Part shown: positions 12,341 to 33,885 of the stretch, one piece after another
How positions within the stretch are numbered: position 1 is the stretch's first letter
Layout of the letters: every line of letters begins with the position of its first letter
Assembly (NCBI GenBank): GCA_028694425.1
Contig: JAQVKX010000003.1
Span: 1-35,642, forward strand
DNA length: 35,642 nt
Direction: 5' to 3'
DNA from: Candidatus Gastranaerophilales bacterium
Lineage (GTDB): Bacteria; Cyanobacteriota; Vampirovibrionia; Gastranaerophilales; Gastranaerophilaceae
Made by a program: the position numbers and the translations under genes
The notes under the pieces: model-generated
Seen by the model: the letters and a program-made list of their open reading frames with translations, nothing else
Told to the model about the DNA's origin: nothing
Databases searched by the model: none

Positions 12341-13093
12341 TTAAACTTCAGCCAAATAATTAAATATTTCATTGACAGGTGTAATTAATTCTTTTACGTC
12401 AATTTCTTCGTCTAATTCAAGCGTTATTGTCGGAATATTTCGCTCAATTCCGGCATAATTCCCGAAACTCCCCGGAGTAGAATACCCTATATCACTTTCT
12501 ACCGGATAATTTATAATAGCAGAAATATCTTTTGCAATTTTTTCAGCCGGTCCGTCATAATTAACAACCTTATAAGGAGCATGCAGGGTTAAAATTATAT
12601 CGGGCGAAAATTCCGATATAACTTCCATTACAAATTTTGTTTCAATTTCGCTTGCAGAATTTTCGCCCCCGAAATATTCGGATGCAAACGGTTCTCTTAC
12701 CCAGTTTTTTGTCGGAAAATTTCTATTTATATCTACTTCATTTGCGTTTGTACGAGTGTTAAGCTCTAATCCGTCAGGGTTTAAGCAAGGAATAAATAAA
12801 AGACGGTTTTTACCCCTCACCCGAATTTCTGAAACTCGTTCCTCGTTTCGAAATTCTTCCCTCTCCCCCAAGGGGCGAGGGGGTAAATTTTTCAAATCTT
12901 TACTAAAGTCGTTTATGTTATTGTGGGTTGGATGATTTATTTTATCAAGATAATTCTCAATCAAAAATTTACCCTGAGGTTCATCGCCGTGAACTGTTCC
13001 GATTATCAGAATGGTTTTATCGCCATCGTGTTGATTTTCAATTAAAACAATTTCATTATTATTTTGTGTATAATTTTTTTTAATTATTTTCAT
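12341..13093 (-). CDS. MpaA-like zinc carboxypeptidase (M14) carrying a repeat-encoded insert
   Basis: The product is 250 residues. Zinc and catalytic motifs of the M14/MpaA group are present: TVHGDEPQG, PCLNPDGLELNTRTNANEVD with INRNFP, LTLHAP, and ITLELDEE. MpaA-type enzymes trim murein tripeptide between D-Glu and diaminopimelate. Residues about 68-96 (KNLPPRPLGEREEF...RVRGK) are encoded by a dispersed palindromic repeat and interrupt the link between the first beta strand region and RLLFIPCLNPDG. The frame stays open, so the protein is probably still made. AGAGGTATCA precedes the ATG. Confidence 0.82.
   Translation of the reverse strand: MKIIKKNYTQNNNEIVLIENQHDGDKTILIIGTVHGDEPQGKFLIENYLDKINHPTHNNINDFSKDLKNLPPRPLGEREEFRNEERVSEIRVRGKNRLLFIPCLNPDGLELNTRTNANEVDINRNFPTKNWVREPFASEYFGGENSASEIETKFVMEVISEFSPDIILTLHAPYKVVNYDGPAEKIAKDISAIINYPVESDIGYSTPGSFGNYAGIERNIPTITLELDEEIDVKELITPVNEIFNYLAEV
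12806..12893. repeat. CCCCTCACCC stem-loop element, copy A (in frame in the M14 gene)
   Basis: TTTACCCCTCACCC and GGGCGAGGGGGTAAA are outer partial complements. The interior is GAATTTC-T-GAAAC-TCGTTCCTC-GTTTC-GAAATTC, two nested perfect stems. A conserved CCTCTCCCCCAAGGGGCGAGG-type block follows. Copies B and C (26901-26973, 27036-27113) keep the layout with different stem bases; copy D lies in aroB. Confidence 0.85.
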
Positions 13094-15139: not shown

Positions 15140-15312
15140 AAAACGTGAAACGTGAAATGTGAAATGTGAAAAGAAGTTTATAGGATTATAAGGTTATAGG
15201 GTTATAGGTTATTTAACCGAAATTGAACGACTTTGCAGAACTGATAAACTTATCACCATATCACCCTATAAACCAAAACTATTCACCCATTCACCTGTTC
15301 ACCTTATAATCC
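15140..15312. repeat. Word-repeat block with large imperfect palindrome
   Basis: It starts with ACGTGAAACGTGAAATGTGA words, then GGATTATAAGGT (15183-15194) pairs perfectly with ACCTTATAATCC (15301-15312). Between them lie TTATAGGGTTATAGG and TTCACCCATTCACCTGTTCA words. 15282-15309 is a 28-base exact inverted match to 1598-1625. Confidence 0.75.
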
Positions 15313-15327
15313 AAAAGAGAGGCATTT

Positions 15328-18458: not shown

Positions 18459-19541
18459 CTAGAGTTCAAATTCAAAACAATCAACAAAAGACTTGGATGA
18501 CGGTAAAATAAAGTTTATTTTACCGTCTTTAACTTTTTTATCGGCTTTCATTAATTCAATCATTCTTTTCTCGTTAAATTCAGGCATTTTTTTTACCAAA
18601 TTATATTTTTTAATAAGTTCCAGTCCTTCATTTTTATATTCTTCACTTATAAGTCCTTTTTTAAAAGCAAGATTAATTGCAAAAACCATACCAATTGCAA
18701 CAGCTTCTCCATGTGTGTATTTTTTATAATTAGTAATTTTTTCGACTGCATGCCCATATGTATGGCCAAAATTAAGAATTTTCCTCAAGCCTTGTTCTTT
18801 TTCGTCTTTTTCGACAATTGACGCCTTAATTTTAAGTGAAATCTCTATAATTTCTGCAAGAATTTCTTCATTGCGTGCCAATATTTTGTCGGAATTGTTC
18901 ATTAGAAAATCGAAGAAATTAAGATACCCCTCACCCCAAACCTCTCCCGCAAGGAGCGAGGTGGCAGCTGCTTCAATAAAAGCATATTTTACAACCTCTG
19001 CCAAACCTGTCTTAAAATGGCGTTTGTCAAGTGTTTTGAGAAAATTAAGGTTACAAAAAACAGCTTTGGGCTGATAAAAAGCACCGACAAGATTTTTACC
19101 GTAATCGGTATTAATTGCTACCTTGCCGCCAACAGAAGAATCTACACAAGCAAGCAAAGTTGTCGGAATCTGAATAAAATCAATTCCTCTTAAATAAGTA
19201 GCTGCAACAAATCCAGCAATATCACCAACTACACCGCCGCCTATTGCAACAATCGCATCTTTTCTTTCTAATTTATTTTTAAGTGCAAAATCTAAAATCC
19301 TTTTGTAATTTTTAAAATTTTTCCTATGTTCCCCGTCTTTTAAAACAAATTTTATACTGTTTTTTATATTTAATTTTTTCCCGTATAATTTATTAACTTT
19401 TTCATTTATAACAATAAGAATTTTATTTGCATTTGTGCAGGCAAAAACTTTATTTTCAAGATTTTCTATGGGTTCAAAATCTATAAAAACAGGGTAAGAT
19501 TTATTTGGCGGAATTTTAACAAAAAGTTCTTTGTTTAACAT
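18459..19541 (-). CDS. aroB: 3-dehydroquinate synthase with a repeat-encoded insert
   Basis: The product is 360 residues. It performs step 2 of the shikimate pathway (DAHP to dehydroquinate; NAD and metal). Motifs: AIGGGVVGDIAGFVAATYLRG, given as AIGGGVVGDIAG and FVAATYLRG, IPTTLLACVDSSVGGKVAIN, KTGLAEVVKYAFI, NFGHTYGHAVEK and HGEAVAIGM. Residues about 192-206 (ATSLLAGEVWGEGY) are encoded by copy D of a dispersed repeat and are not expected in the family. Its start lies inside aroK (26-base overlap). The fliD terminator hairpin is embedded in the last codons. Confidence 0.94.
   Translation of the reverse strand: MLNKELFVKIPPNKSYPVFIDFEPIENLENKVFACTNANKILIVINEKVNKLYGKKLNIKNSIKFVLKDGEHRKNFKNYKRILDFALKNKLERKDAIVAIGGGVVGDIAGFVAATYLRGIDFIQIPTTLLACVDSSVGGKVAINTDYGKNLVGAFYQPKAVFCNLNFLKTLDKRHFKTGLAEVVKYAFIEAAATSLLAGEVWGEGYLNFFDFLMNNSDKILARNEEILAEIIEISLKIKASIVEKDEKEQGLRKILNFGHTYGHAVEKITNYKKYTHGEAVAIGMVFAINLAFKKGLISEEYKNEGLELIKKYNLVKKMPEFNEKRMIELMKADKKVKDGKINFILPSSKSFVDCFEFEL
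18499..18540 (+). terminator. Rho-independent terminator of fliD inside aroB
   Basis: GACGGTAAAATAAA (18499-18512) and TTTATTTTACCGTC (18514-18527) are perfect complements, followed by TTTAACTTTTTT on the plus strand. It lies 41 bases after the fliD stop and at the same time encodes DGKINFILPS of aroB on the other strand. Confidence 0.75.
18926..18966. repeat. CCCCTCACCC element, copy D (short form, in frame in aroB)
   Basis: TACCCCTCACCCC-AAA-CCTCTCCCGCAAGGAGCGAGG keeps the two conserved blocks of copies A-C but lacks the variable internal stem. It encodes about 14 extra residues of AroB. Confidence 0.75.
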
Positions 19542-22646: not shown

Positions 22647-22670
22647 AATTCTCCCGACAAATACGTTTTA

Positions 22671-22799
22671 CGTCATTGCGAGGAGGGGGTAAATCAAGTG
22701 TTCGGTTGGATTTTGAACAATATGCCCCGACGCGGCAATCCAAAAAAAATTCTTGGATTGCTTCGTCGCTCGGCTACGCCTCACTTCTCGCAATGACAT
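22671..22799. repeat. Dispersed palindromic element, copy R2
   Basis: It starts GTCATTGCGAGGAGGGGG and ends CTTCTCGCAATGACATG. The inner stem is GACGCGGCAATCCAA against TTGGATTGCTTCGTC, slightly decayed. R2 is followed by ATGAAACTTGTTTATTTTTT, closely matching ATGAGACTTGTTTGTTTTTT after copy R3, so the repeat unit may extend beyond the palindrome. Confidence 0.85.
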
Positions 22800-22920
22800 G
22801 AAACTTGTTTATTTTTTCATGTAATTTGTAACCTTTCTTTATAAAAGTATAACAAAACAGCAATTTTTAAAAGTCTTTTGTTTTTAATTAAATATGAAGT
22901 AATTAGTAGTAGGGAAAAAA

Positions 22921-24726: not shown

Positions 24727-26448
24727 TTAATATGCTTTATCCTCTAATTCATTGAGTTTTTTATTTAAATCAGTTATTTGCTGCCTTAATGCAAGATATT
24801 CATTATTTTCTTCTTCGCTGACATATGCACCTGTGTTATCTAATCCTTGAATCCTCCCGCCATTTTTTGTATATGCATTACGATAGTCAAGTTTTATATT
24901 TTTAGAAGCTGTTTCTAATTTAGCTCTAAATTCAGCTATTTTCTTTTGTATATCTTTATCATTAGGATCTAAATGTGTTAAATCATAATTTACTTCAGAT
25001 ACAAGTCTTCTTACTGAAGAACCTTTTGTATATTTTCTTTCTTCACCGTAGAAACCGTCTACACATTCAAGTTCTGCAGCATTATAACCATTATCTTTAT
25101 TTCTGATACCGGAAACTATATCGTCTAAATCCTTACTTATAAATTCTAAATCCATCTGTTCATAAGGAAAATCTGATTGCAAATCATATATTGCTCCTCG
25201 TGCCGCTTTAATAGCATCTATAGTGCCTTGGTCTAATGGTTTATATGCCGCTGCATCCTTAGTCTCTATAACTGTAGGCAAAGAATCATTAAAATTTCTT
25301 ACTGCTCTTCTTGCGGTTTCAATTAAGTCTTTTGCTCTTGCCAATCTTCCGGTAAAATCACCTTTGTCAACAGCCGAAGGCGGTAGAGCAGCCGGGAGCT
25401 TTTCAACAGGTTTTTCTGCAGGCTTTTCAACTGCAGGTTGTGCTTTTTCTACTTCGGGAGCAGGAAGTTCTTCTTGTTGTTCAACTACGGGTTGTGCAAT
25501 AGGCTGGAGAGTTGGTGATGCTTTGACCGCAGGTGGAATTGCCCCATTTATTGAGGGAACTGCAGGCATTTCACCGGTCGTTTCAATTTCTATTCGACTT
25601 AATCCTCCTGGCGGTGATAGGGATTGATTTCCGGTAGGCTGGGGTGAAATTGTTATATTTACCGCTCCCCCAAACGGATTATTTGAAGTCCCGACCGGTG
25701 GAACAGTTTGAGTTGTCTTTGGAGCAGAAGGAATAGTCGCTTTTGAAGGTGTCATTTCTGCTGTTTGCCTTTGCACAGGAGCAATTATTTTTGCCTCACC
25801 GGGTTCATCCGATTTTACTTGAATTCGGGGAATACCTGACTGCTCGGCAGGAACACTCGGTATCTGTATAACATCAGGTTGTTGAGGCTGGCTTTCAGGA
25901 ACGGCTAAGGTTAGAACCTCAGATGAAGGAAGAGTGGTTATCGATTCCTGAACAGTTTCATTCTTTGGTAATTTAACTTCGGCTTCCGCTTTAGGTACCT
26001 CTTGAGGTTTAGGGAATACTAATTGAGGTTTAGAAATAGTTAAAGCCGGAGGTTCCGGTATTTCTATGGAAACCGGTTTATCATCATCTCTTTGAGGTTG
26101 TAAATCCGGTAATTTAATAGTTTCTTCTTTTGGTTTTTGTATTTGCGGCATTTCAAAAGGGTTATCTTTTTTAACTTTTTTAAATAAACCTCCAAATAAT
26201 CCGAATAATGAACTAAATAAATCTTTAAACATATTAAAAAGTTTCATTACAGCAGGTACTAAATTTGGCAACGAAGCTAAAATCATCAAAATACCAATAT
26301 TATTTGCAGCTTTTTTACTTGCTGAATTGCCATAGGAAAGTGCCTCATCAAAGGTCGATCCGCAATAACGGTTATAAGAATGATTTCTTCTTTTATTTAG
26401 GCCTACCCGACGGGTAAAACCGGTGTATAAACCATTTACTCTGCTCAT
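24727..26448 (-). CDS. Large proline-rich protein with RVNGLYTG N-terminus
   Basis: The product is 574 residues if started at the ATG at 26448, which follows AGGAAATACCT; the longer frame to 26604 lacks a site and would cover a promoter region. Order: N-terminal RVNGLYTGFTRRVGLNKRR; an amphipathic hydrophobic stretch (about 50-90, LFGLFGG type) followed by KKDNPF; a proline/glutamate-rich low-complexity region (about 95-370); and a helical C-terminal domain rich in D, K and Y. It is paralogous in layout to the 277-residue gene upstream. It is probably membrane- or envelope-associated; the function is unknown. Confidence 0.72.
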   Translation of the reverse strand: MSRVNGLYTGFTRRVGLNKRRNHSYNRYCGSTFDEALSYGNSASKKAANNIGILMILASLPNLVPAVMKLFNMFKDLFSSLFGLFGGLFKKVKKDNPFEMPQIQKPKEETIKLPDLQPQRDDDKPVSIEIPEPPALTISKPQLVFPKPQEVPKAEAEVKLPKNETVQESITTLPSSEVLTLAVPESQPQQPDVIQIPSVPAEQSGIPRIQVKSDEPGEAKIIAPVQRQTAEMTPSKATIPSAPKTTQTVPPVGTSNNPFGGAVNITISPQPTGNQSLSPPGGLSRIEIETTGEMPAVPSINGAIPPAVKASPTLQPIAQPVVEQQEELPAPEVEKAQPAVEKPAEKPVEKLPAALPPSAVDKGDFTGRLARAKDLIETARRAVRNFNDSLPTVIETKDAAAYKPLDQGTIDAIKAARGAIYDLQSDFPYEQMDLEFISKDLDDIVSGIRNKDNGYNAAELECVDGFYGEERKYTKGSSVRRLVSEVNYDLTHLDPNDKDIQKKIAEFRAKLETASKNIKLDYRNAYTKNGGRIQGLDNTGAYVSEEENNEYLALRQQITDLNKKLNELEDKAY

Positions 26449-26488
26449 AGGTATTTCCTGTAATTTACATAGGTATATCAATAAGATG

Positions 26489-26613
26489 GATGGGGTATAT
26501 ATTAAATAAGTATAAAATGCATAAAAAATTGCCTGAAAAGGATTAAAAATATCAATAAAAAAGTCTAAAACGCTTGGACTGTAATCATATTGGGCTTGTA
26601 ACAAATTGTTAAG
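26489..26613 (-). promoter_or_regulatory. Upstream region shared with the 277-aa paralogue, with Pho-box-like repeat
   Basis: The minus strand has CTTAACAATTTGTTACAAG (26613-26595), an 11-base-period direct repeat, then GGCAATTTT and ACTTATTTAATATATACC. The same blocks in the same order lie upstream of the gene at 27231-28064, at nearly equal distance (about 145 bases) from the start. Cyanobacterial Pho boxes are CTTAACCT direct repeats with that period; the match is partial. Confidence 0.45.
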
Positions 26614-26651
26614 AATTTAAGGATTTATTACAACTCAGATAATCAAAGCTC

Positions 26652-26832
26652 ATGTCATTGCGAGGATGGAGCAAAGCGACTGACGAAGCAATCCAAAGAA
26701 AAGGAAAAAGGTAAAGAGGAAAAGAATAAATTAAAATTAAACTTTTCAACTTTTCAACTGTTCGACTTTTCGACTTTTCAATTTTTTTGGATTGCCGCGT
26801 CGCTTGCTTCGCAAGCTCCTCGCAATGACATG
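26652..26832. repeat. Dispersed palindromic element, copy R3 with a nested word repeat
   Basis: It starts GTCATTGCGAGGATGGAGCA and ends AGCTCCTCGCAATGACATG; the inner stem is GACGAAGCAATCCAA / TTGGATTGCCGCGTC. Its centre (about 26700-26785) holds a different repeat, AACTTTTCAACTTTTCAACT and TTCGACTTTTCGACTTTTCA, preceded by AAATTAAAATTAAAC, which also occurs in variant form at 33797-33818. One repeat type seems to have inserted into another. Confidence 0.8.
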
Positions 26833-26900
26833 AGACTTGTTTGTTTTTTGATCGTATCTACTCAGGTCAAATCAATTATGGTTAAAACGTACGCCCAGTG

Positions 26901-26973
26901 TACCCTCGCTCCTTGGGGGAGAGGGGATTTTTCAATGCGAAGAATGAGCATTAGAAAAATTGGGTGAGGGGTT
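26901..26973. repeat. CCCCTCACCC stem-loop element, copy B
   Basis: On the minus strand: CCCCTCACCC, then ATTTTTC-T-AATGC-TCATTCTTC-GCATT-GAAAAAT, then CCCCTCTCCCCCAAGGAGCG. Both inner stems pair perfectly although their bases differ from copies A and C. Confidence 0.85.
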
Positions 26974-27035
26974 AAAAAACATATACCGGTTGCCCCTCCA
27001 TTTTGACTTGACATTTAGTCAACTCAAAACGGAGT

Positions 27036-27113
27036 CCTTCCCTCACCCTGTTTTCTGATTTTCGCGATTTCCCGCTCAAATCGAAAACAGACCTCTCCCC
27101 CAAAGGGCGAGGT
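27036..27113. repeat. CCCCTCACCC stem-loop element, copy C
   Basis: CTTCCCTCACC, then CTGTTTTC-T-GATTT-TCGCGATTTCCCGCTC-AAATC-GAAAACAG, then ACCTCTCCCCCAAAGGGCGA. There are two nested perfect stems plus a GCG/CGC pair in the loop. On the minus strand it reads PRPLGER...SENRVREG, nearly the peptide that copy A adds to the M14 protein. The rest of 26833-27230 holds no gene I can support; about 26870-26890 and 27145-27180 share an inverted ACTCAGGTNAAAT motif. Confidence 0.85.
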
Positions 27114-27230
27114 GAAAAGCGTGTTAAATTCCTGCTTGTGGCTACATTGAATTTCACCTGAGTTGTTACGTTTGATCTGAATTGTTATAAAATTTTATAA
27201 TAAATTTGTTTGAATTATTTTAGCAAGAAG

Positions 27231-28064
27231 CTAGACCATTGCCCCCCCTCGGGATTCGGAGGAATCATCATCATTATCTTCTTCAGCTTTTGCTTTTTCT
27301 GCATCTCTTTTTGCTTTTATTTCCGGAGCTTGAATTTTTAACGCATTTGCCTCACTTATTAATGCCGATAAATTATTATTAGCTGTTTTTAATTCAGTTA
27401 TTTGTCTGGTAAGTTCTGCTATTTTTTCAACATTTTCTGAAATTTTCCTATTAATCTCATCAATTTTTTTATTAATTTCTGCAATTTGTGCTTTGTCCGA
27501 AGTTTGAGGTGTGTTCAGTTTGTTTAAGTTATCTTGTAATGCTTGAAGTTGAGTATTTAATTGATTATTTTCAGTATTTAAATTAGTTATTTGATTATCA
27601 TAACGCTGTATTTGTGCTTCATTTGCAGCTTTTCTCGCCTCTGCAGCTGCTATTTGTACATCAAGGTTTGCAGTTTCGCCTGTTATTTTTGTATTAGCAA
27701 TTTCTTGCCCAAGTCCTGCTTTGGAAGTATTTGTATCAGCAACTTGCTGTTGTAATGTTATAGTTTTTGAACCTTGTGTTGTTCCGAAAGGATTGTCATT
27801 AGCTTTATCAGCTTTTTTACCGAAACCAAACAATCCCTTAAACAAATCAACTACAGTCGGAATTATAGTTAACCATGTCATAATGTTGGTCATATTCTCT
27901 ATGCCGCTGAGACCTGAGCTCATTGACGAAGATGAACAACTGCAATTAGACTGCCAAATAGAATTTCTATAATGGCGTCTATTGTAGCTCCGATGTGATC
28001 TTACCCAATTGGTAAAATCAGCATTTTGAGTCTTATAGCTGTTTAGCCAACGTACTTCGTGCAT
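27231..28064 (-). CDS. Coiled-coil protein, paralogous in layout to the 574-aa gene
   Basis: The product is 277 residues from the ATG at 28064, with AGGAGAAATCC upstream; the longer frame to 28154 crosses the shared promoter region. N-terminal MHEVRWLNSYKTQN and an Arg/Tyr-rich segment (SHRSYNRRHYRNS) are followed by a serine/cysteine patch, a hydrophobic stretch TWLTIIPTVVDLFKGLFGFG and KKADKANDNPFG. A long coiled coil (about 105-260) and an acidic tail EEDNDDDSSESRGG follow. LFKGLFGFGKK...DNPF matches LFGLFGGLFKK...DNPF of the 574-residue protein. The function is unknown; it is probably membrane-anchored. Confidence 0.72.
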   Translation of the reverse strand: MHEVRWLNSYKTQNADFTNWVRSHRSYNRRHYRNSIWQSNCSCSSSSMSSGLSGIENMTNIMTWLTIIPTVVDLFKGLFGFGKKADKANDNPFGTTQGSKTITLQQQVADTNTSKAGLGQEIANTKITGETANLDVQIAAAEARKAANEAQIQRYDNQITNLNTENNQLNTQLQALQDNLNKLNTPQTSDKAQIAEINKKIDEINRKISENVEKIAELTRQITELKTANNNLSALISEANALKIQAPEIKAKRDAEKAKAEEDNDDDSSESRGGAMV

Positions 28065-28093
28065 GGATTTCTCCTGATTTTTACATATATTAA

Positions 28094-28225
28094 TGGATGG
28101 GGAATGGTATATATTATATAAGTAAAAAGTATATATAAAATTGCCTAAAAGCATGTTGGCAAAATAACTAAAATGGCATAAAGCACAATAAAATCAACCA
28201 TTTAGAATTGTAAAGAAATGTTAAG
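28094..28225 (-). promoter_or_regulatory. Upstream region of the coiled-coil gene with Pho-box-like repeat
   Basis: CTTAACATTTCTTTACAATT (28225-28206, minus strand) is a direct repeat of CTT(A/T)ACA. It is followed by AGGCAATTTT and ACTTATATAATATATACC, matching the region upstream of the gene ending at 26448. Confidence 0.45.
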
Positions 28226-33721: not shown

Positions 33722-33885
33722 ATGCTTGGTGCATAAATGCACCCTGCTATAGTGAGAAGTAAAAAAGTGAGAAAAAGTTAGGCGTGAGGCTTAAAGAGGA
33801 ATAAGTTAAAATTAAACTGTTCACCTATTCACCTTATAACCCTATAACCCGGATAATTTTCCATTTTCAACTTTCCATTTTCCAT
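33722..33885. repeat. Repeat block between nitrilase and dacB genes
   Basis: It contains GGTGCATAAATGCACC (33728-33743), matching 4035-4048; AAAGAGGAATAAGTTAAAAT, resembling the core of R3; CTGTTCACCTATTCACCTTA and TAACCCTATAACCC words; and TTCCATTTTCAACTTTCCAT words. The last words run into the nitrilase gene and encode its final residues VKWKMES. Confidence 0.75.

Follow-up and report, generated by a model that had tools for sequence, protein, structure and literature searches.

Palindromic repeats inserted in frame within protein-coding genes are known from Rickettsia as the Rickettsia palindromic elements (RPE). 'Untagged' palindromic repeats, for which, to our knowledge, no mover is known, also number in the tens to hundreds in many bacteria. 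RPE overlap with REPs of the CGTC type (PMC3733652). In the hairpins of REP and IS200/IS605 elements an unpaired base or bulge is the recognition mark (PMC8266576), and the TIRs of TIRYT genes have GGGGWSAS in common (PMC3733652). Two reports concern DUF559, a domain that recurs throughout this work: a DUF559 gene in a Thermosynechococcus intein context is reported as an EDxHD homing endonuclease (PMC9403480), and in Caulobacter a DUF559 protein, VsrA, reportedly causes an SOS response in cells that lack a cytosine methyltransferase (PMC12907096).

How does the present locus compare? The repeats were found in a stretch of 35,642 nt from a Candidatus Gastranaerophilales bacterium, the whole of which we call the window. 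It holds three full copies and one minimal copy (Table 1). A full copy runs from CCCCTCACCC (box 1) through a two-part hairpin to CCTCTCCCCCAAGGGGCGAGG (box 2), which is a palindrome in its own right. The hairpin consists of an outer stem of 7-8 bp and an inner stem of 5 bp with a single unpaired T between them. The sequence-only reading of the window had located copies A, B and C nearly exactly and had quoted their inner-stem sequences correctly; B, however, lies on the strand opposite to A and C, which makes B-C an inverted, head-to-head pair. The spacer of this pair holds a palindrome of its own, and the layout is that of the repeats around DUF559 genes, minus the gene. That reading could not reveal the partner gene (DUF559), the head-to-head unit, or that the design recurs across many phyla.

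Table 1. Repeat copies in the window, the larger structures they belong to and the genes that carry them.
Feature	Position	Strand	Description	Score (bits)
Copy A	12813..12882	+	Box 1, hairpin GAATTTC-T-GAAAC / GTTTC-GAAATTC, box 2	89.6
Copy B	26902..26971	-	Hairpin ATTTTTC-T-AATGC / GCATT-GAAAAAT, short-loop type	85.4
Copy C	27039..27114	+	Hairpin CTGTTTTC-T-GATTT / AAATC-GAAAACAG, long-loop type	73.9
Minimal copy	18927..18963	+	Box 1, 4-nt linker, box 2 (CCCCTCACCCCAAACCTCTCCCGCAAGGAGCGAGGTG); without inner hairpin; within aroB	31.7
Head-to-head pair B-C	26902..27114	.	Box 1s face each other across a 67-nt spacer	
Outer multi-copy element, about 316 bp	26854..27169	.	Encloses the B-C pair; imperfect terminal inverted repeats GTATCTACTCAGGTCAAAT...ATTTCACCTGAGTTGTTAC	
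Zinc carboxypeptidase (Peptidase_M14) gene	12341..13093	-	Copy A as in-frame insert	
aroB, 3-dehydroquinate synthase gene	18459..19541	-	8-residue net insertion at the minimal copy	

The window contains other repeats as well. Palindromic repeats of a second kind, GTCATTGCGAGGA...GACGCGGCAATCC, lie at 114-277, 22657-22820 and 26639-26852, in some cases as inverted pairs, and resemble CGTC-tagged REPs. A third family, rich in TTCACC / TTATAACCC, lies in inverted orientation in several intergenic places (1565-1632, 15176-15315, 33799-33880), with arms up to 93% complementary. Two minus-strand genes, at 24727-26604 and 27231-28154, begin with similar 45-nt stretches (26494-26538 and 28106-28150, 84% identical); their Pfam matches are absent or weak and of coiled-coil type.

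The sequence-only reading would have been refuted had the hairpin repeat no more copies in the genome, or had the copies shown no significant covariation once aligned; it withstands both tests. The exact pattern CCCTCACCC-N28..58-CTCTCCCCCAA has 26 matches in the genome and, reversed as a control, none; at least 82 are detected by a covariance model trained on 20 distinct copies. Judged by the exact pattern in relatives, the repeat would be confined to this genome, a conclusion that we rejected because the pattern is too strict: the model finds matches in 14 of 59 genomes from the same family, order and class, all 14 inside the family. Among the loci examined, the closest named carriers of the hairpin type are Candidatus Gastranaerophilales MAGs. 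Within one genus the copy number ranges from at least 121 in the genome G026 to 0 and 3 in two congeners, an excess that points to a recent burst.

About half of 20 copies inspected lie within open frames of at least 250 codons, and repeats are read through in frame in the M14, aroB, helicase and other genes. Copy A is read in frame on the minus strand of the M14 gene, at a loop that is short in all nine relatives, and the net insert in aroB is lacking in the nine relatives compared. As in-frame copies are missing from relatives and copy numbers are uneven within one genus, the repeats behave as mobile DNA. In two genera repeats are also read in frame as part of the leader region that immediately precedes prepilin-like FTLAE motifs, at loci L352, L356, L358, L359 and L365 of G026 and L002, L007, L026, L329 and L330 of the present genome. 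A leader that is cleaved off would make a safe landing site.

That the fold is kept while the bases vary, as the sequence-only reading held, is borne out by a sequence-only MAFFT alignment of 20 distinct copies. Of its cells, 96% pair, and 9 of the 12 hairpin pairs have changed on both sides. Double-change cells number 64, compared with 19.4 +/- 3.5 in shuffles and with 3-14 in a control in which the partner was slid by 1-3 columns. Single hairpins fold better than mononucleotide shuffles (z -1.7 to -8.5). The unpaired T, said to be kept in every copy, is retained in 19 of the 20 rows.

All 17 close pairs in this genome, B-C among them, are head-to-head, and in 12 the spacer between the boxes measures 23-26 nt. 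Most combine one short-loop with one long-loop member, and G026 has pairs of near-identical copies about 18 nt apart. The natural unit thus looks like a small two-ended element, of which the region 26901-27113 appears to be one. The B-C pair is in turn enclosed by the 316-bp element, which has further copies on contigs C115, C151 and C227 and a partial one on C230 (loci L012, L017, L022 and L331 besides the window). A possible target-site duplication, TTTGATC, was seen at the window's copy of this element; no clean one was found for the hairpin unit. Descent of all head-to-head pairs from one 316-bp element was considered and rejected, as only 4 of the 17 have the outer flanks in common. The C227 copy carries a different 26-nt spacer in place of the window's.

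What gene accompanies the repeats? This genome has two DUF559 genes (PF04480; profile E 1.4e-37 and 9.0e-33), one of which lies in frame within a UvrD-type helicase and has box-1 and box-2 sequences on its flanks. The frame of this helicase, 1474 aa long (L145 4760-9184), also takes in two further copies of the hairpin repeat. In relatives, where loci were picked solely by the DUF559 protein and not by the repeat, exact CCCTC[ATG]CCC cores lie near most full-length DUF559 genes and the others show variants; the core occurs at 0 of 20 controls (18 partial DUF559-like matches in long helicase-size frames and two Y1 transposase loci). We also applied an automatic test, which asks for a C/T-rich palindrome within 450 nt of DUF559 on at least one side. 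It was positive at 40 of 48 loci (9/10 in relatives, 20/24 in many phyla, 11/14 in a plasmid collection), in the outer windows of the same loci at 4 of 48, and at none of 15 control loci. Inspected by eye, nearly all its misses have longer-looped or variant palindromes.

The repeats flank DUF559 in 32 genomes of many phyla, a sample chosen for having the repeat. Among plasmid-collection loci, chosen by protein alone, those of E. coli, Deinococcus, Azospirillum, Sinorhizobium, Shinella, Sphingomonadales, cyanobacteria, Neisseria and others are bracketed. In the reverse direction, 114 repeat-bearing stretches (0.81 Mb) yielded 14 DUF559 genes, 10 of them no more than 300 nt from an exact repeat. 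Repeats and full-length DUF559 also co-occur by genome: 10 genomes have both, two DUF559 only, four repeats only and 43 neither (Fisher p=9e-7 for 59 genomes and 1.9e-4 for the 36 family members, p-values that ignore phylogeny). The nearest exact box 1 faces the DUF559 gene in 32 cases and away from it in 13, a mixed orientation. We regard the partnership of DUF559 and repeat as well supported. Outside this bacterial family, assignment to the same family of repeats rests on shared design and partial sequence, the letters being different. A literature link between DUF559 and palindromic repeats was not found, in a search that omits most subscription papers, so that a prior description is possible; a search of the same reach with the repeat letters returned no relevant paper among those listed.

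Individual loci add to this picture. In G026 the PriA gene contains a whole DUF559 unit in frame, and two congeners are without it; the PriA proteins of G034 (L165) and G026 (L160), from two genera, carry the in-frame unit at the same linker. A Pseudanabaena Eco57I-type methylase (L344 373-3306) has an in-frame DUF559 domain between CCCTC palindromes, and a DUF559 gene of Synechocystis (L224) has a DUF1156 gene as its neighbour. E. coli ycjD is bracketed by the repeat, similar repeat copies number a median of nine per complete E. coli genome with a match, and the NCBIfam model matched by these proteins, PRK09767, is a DUF559 equivalog. E. coli strain S4 was considered as an empty ycjD site and discarded, the gene neighbourhood there being different.

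The DUF559 members have invariant E, D, E-x-D and H positions. An AlphaFold model (pLDDT 85) of one such protein from Candidatus Gastranaerophilales matches three structures: the endonuclease-like gonococcal 3hrl, the homing endonuclease I-Bth0305I in its catalytic domain (3r3p, E 6e-6) and Vsr (1vsr). Given these conserved residues, the Vsr-like model and the reports on VsrA and the EDxHD enzyme, the family plausibly cuts DNA. As a rule, PD-(D/E)XK enzymes cleave DNA without joining it, and integration would thus depend on host repair or on a further enzyme.

From the copy number, the covariation, the head-to-head pairing, the DUF559 association and the in-frame inserts, to which the nuclease fold may be added, we think it fairly probable that the repeats are the ends of small non-autonomous mobile DNA elements, spread by a DUF559 nuclease of the YcjD type acting on their hairpins; we infer that DUF559 binds, cuts and copies the repeats and so moves them. 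The unit would read box-2 palindrome, hairpin, box 1, centre, box 1, hairpin, box-2 palindrome. An autonomous unit would have the DUF559 gene in its centre, miniature pairs such as B-C a centre of just about 18-67 nt, and single copies would be half units. When single-stranded or extruded, the repeat would fold into a hairpin or cruciform, which DUF559 would recognise, with box 1 and box 2 as the conserved bases. The unpaired T may serve as a recognition mark, and its retention is suggestive in light of how REP and IS200/IS605 hairpins are read. DUF559 would then nick or cut at the folded repeat, and repair or re-insertion after the cut would spread the unit. With folded DNA as the substrate, pairing would be kept while the letters of the inner stem drift, giving compensating stem changes. 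Copies borne by genes would survive only where they keep the frame and have struck a tolerant loop or a leader peptide.

Is the nuclease the mobiliser or a guest? Direct movement of the repeats was not observed, and the nuclease could be carried by the repeats, or exploit them by homing, and not move them. DUF559 would then be a passenger or homing-type parasite whose units insert at their own cutting sites, the C-rich palindromes being moved by another enzyme or by replication slippage. Its nearest folds are indeed a homing endonuclease catalytic domain and Vsr and not a transposase, the Thermosynechococcus gene has been placed among EDxHD homing endonucleases (PMC9403480), and the unit occupies the same place in a PriA loop in two genera. 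Some repeat-rich genomes also go without a detected full-length DUF559: four family genomes (G014, G016, G023 and G027) have repeats, two of them at least 10 copies. In these it is possible that the gene has been lost, is unassembled or acts in trans. Against this stand the co-occurrence of full-length DUF559 and repeats across genomes, miniature pairs laid out like the DUF559 unit but lacking the gene, and the fact that no other gene was found at the repeats. We therefore consider a passenger role unlikely.

A further reading has the repeats, as REP or TIR elements, moved by Y1 (RAYT or TIRYT) transposases, which act on folded single-stranded DNA. TnpA-REP and IS200/IS605 transposases do read hairpins through bulges or an unpaired T, as found here (PMC8266576), the TIRYT motif GGGGWSAS resembles GGGGTGAG, and Y1_Tnp genes are present in this genome and in several repeat-bearing relatives. 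However, no GTAG or CGTC tag is visible in the repeats, and the exact repeat core occurs at just one of the 30 Y1 transposase loci taken from this genome and its relatives. The high-copy genomes G019, G026 and G027 have no Y1_Tnp match at all, and none was found in the 114 repeat-bearing stretches, a search of low power made with a small Y1 profile. Co-occurrence of Y1_Tnp with the repeats is also the weaker one (p=0.02 for all genomes and 0.04 for the family, phylogeny again ignored). Y1/RAYT was rejected as the partner, since its genes do not adjoin the repeat and the co-occurrence is weak, and movement by such enzymes is improbable.

Could the covariation have arisen with no selection on the fold? 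Quasi-palindrome correction, in which the template switches between the arms, would yield double changes with almost no single-change intermediates, and single-wobble intermediates are nearly missing from the hairpin alignment; the repeats themselves would spread passively. Rearrangement driven by palindromes does take place here: between the window and contig C115, the spacer palindrome has its central 21 nt exactly inverted. Arm-to-arm correction leaves unexplained why the unpaired T is kept, why the boxes are fixed, why head-to-head copies keep a set spacing of 23-26 nt (or 18 nt), and the tie to DUF559, and as the whole account it has very little probability, although it may act alongside DUF559-driven spread.

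Selection at the RNA level, on a structured RNA family or terminator-like element, would fit the strong covariation and the stable folds on both strands but is highly improbable given the copies read through inside genes, the patchy, burst-like distribution, the absence of Rfam matches in the window at gathering thresholds, the near absence of single-wobble intermediates, and a tally of hairpin cells (two G.U and three A.C beside 64 double changes) that is unusual for RNA. RNA selection on one strand would tolerate G.U above A.C, and G.U is not commoner here. From this missing asymmetry, small as the counts are, the constraint looks DNA-level, on a folded single strand, a cruciform or through arm-to-arm correction, and an RNA function is disfavoured by the wobble counts together with the coding context. 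The sequence-only reading, which spoke of a structured mobile or functional element, was thus right in outline, the evidence favouring mobile DNA over functional RNA. The hairpins would offer a clear natural case of DNA-level covariation, and they counsel caution in reading covariation as proof of a functional RNA.

Spread of the repeats by DUF559, if correct, has a wider reach. The association suggests that a very widespread class of bacterial palindromes has in DUF559 the partner that had long been missing. We propose, tentatively and with slightly more doubt than confidence, that DUF559/YcjD nucleases define bacteria-wide mobile palindromes that are spread by a Vsr-like homing-type nuclease and not by a transposase. 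Orphan C-rich palindromes of proteobacteria, acidobacteria, planctomycetes, deinococci, cyanobacteria and E. coli would then be united under one helper protein. Through the tie to DUF559 the untagged repeats gain a candidate protein with a predicted substrate, for which E. coli K-12 ycjD offers a laboratory system, and a domain of unknown function gains a likely job.

Among known systems, rhizobial and cyanobacterial orphan palindromes, Vsr-like homing endonucleases, RPE, MITEs and REP/RAYT (REPtrons) all bear comparison with the repeats described here. With REP/RAYT they share short palindromes in tens to hundreds of copies, head-to-head pairs, an irregular hairpin stem and a DNA-processing enzyme gene flanked by the same repeats (PMC3733652, PMC8266576). 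REPs occur mostly as inverted pairs, as do the repeats here, with every close pair head-to-head. The conserved GTAG/CGTC at the palindrome foot is lacking in the 20 aligned copies, and the bracketed enzyme is a PD-(D/E)XK Vsr-like nuclease where REP/RAYT have a Y1 HuH transposase. With neither the tag nor a Y1 gene at the repeat, the system works like REP/RAYT but is not one. RPE resemble it in their in-frame insertion into coding genes, seen here in M14, aroB, the helicase and others; they differ in sequence and size, and for the present repeats a partner nuclease gene has been identified. As in MITEs, miniature non-autonomous units share their ends, here box 1 and box 2, with a larger unit that bears the DUF559 gene, and B-C sits in a multi-copy element with terminal inverted repeats; a clear target-site duplication was not established for the hairpin unit, and its putative helper differs in not being a known transposase. 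DUF559 shares its fold and its conserved acidic and histidine residues with Vsr and the EDxHD homing endonucleases (I-Bth0305I), and like them it is encoded both by free-standing genes and in frame within host genes. In the literature searched, those enzymes are not described as having a palindromic bracket or many copies without the gene. Orphan palindromes around DUF559 in rhizobia and cyanobacteria may correspond to families named previously, such as RIME. The C-rich palindromes that bracket plasmid DUF559 genes in these bacteria differ in their letters from the repeats here but share their general design.
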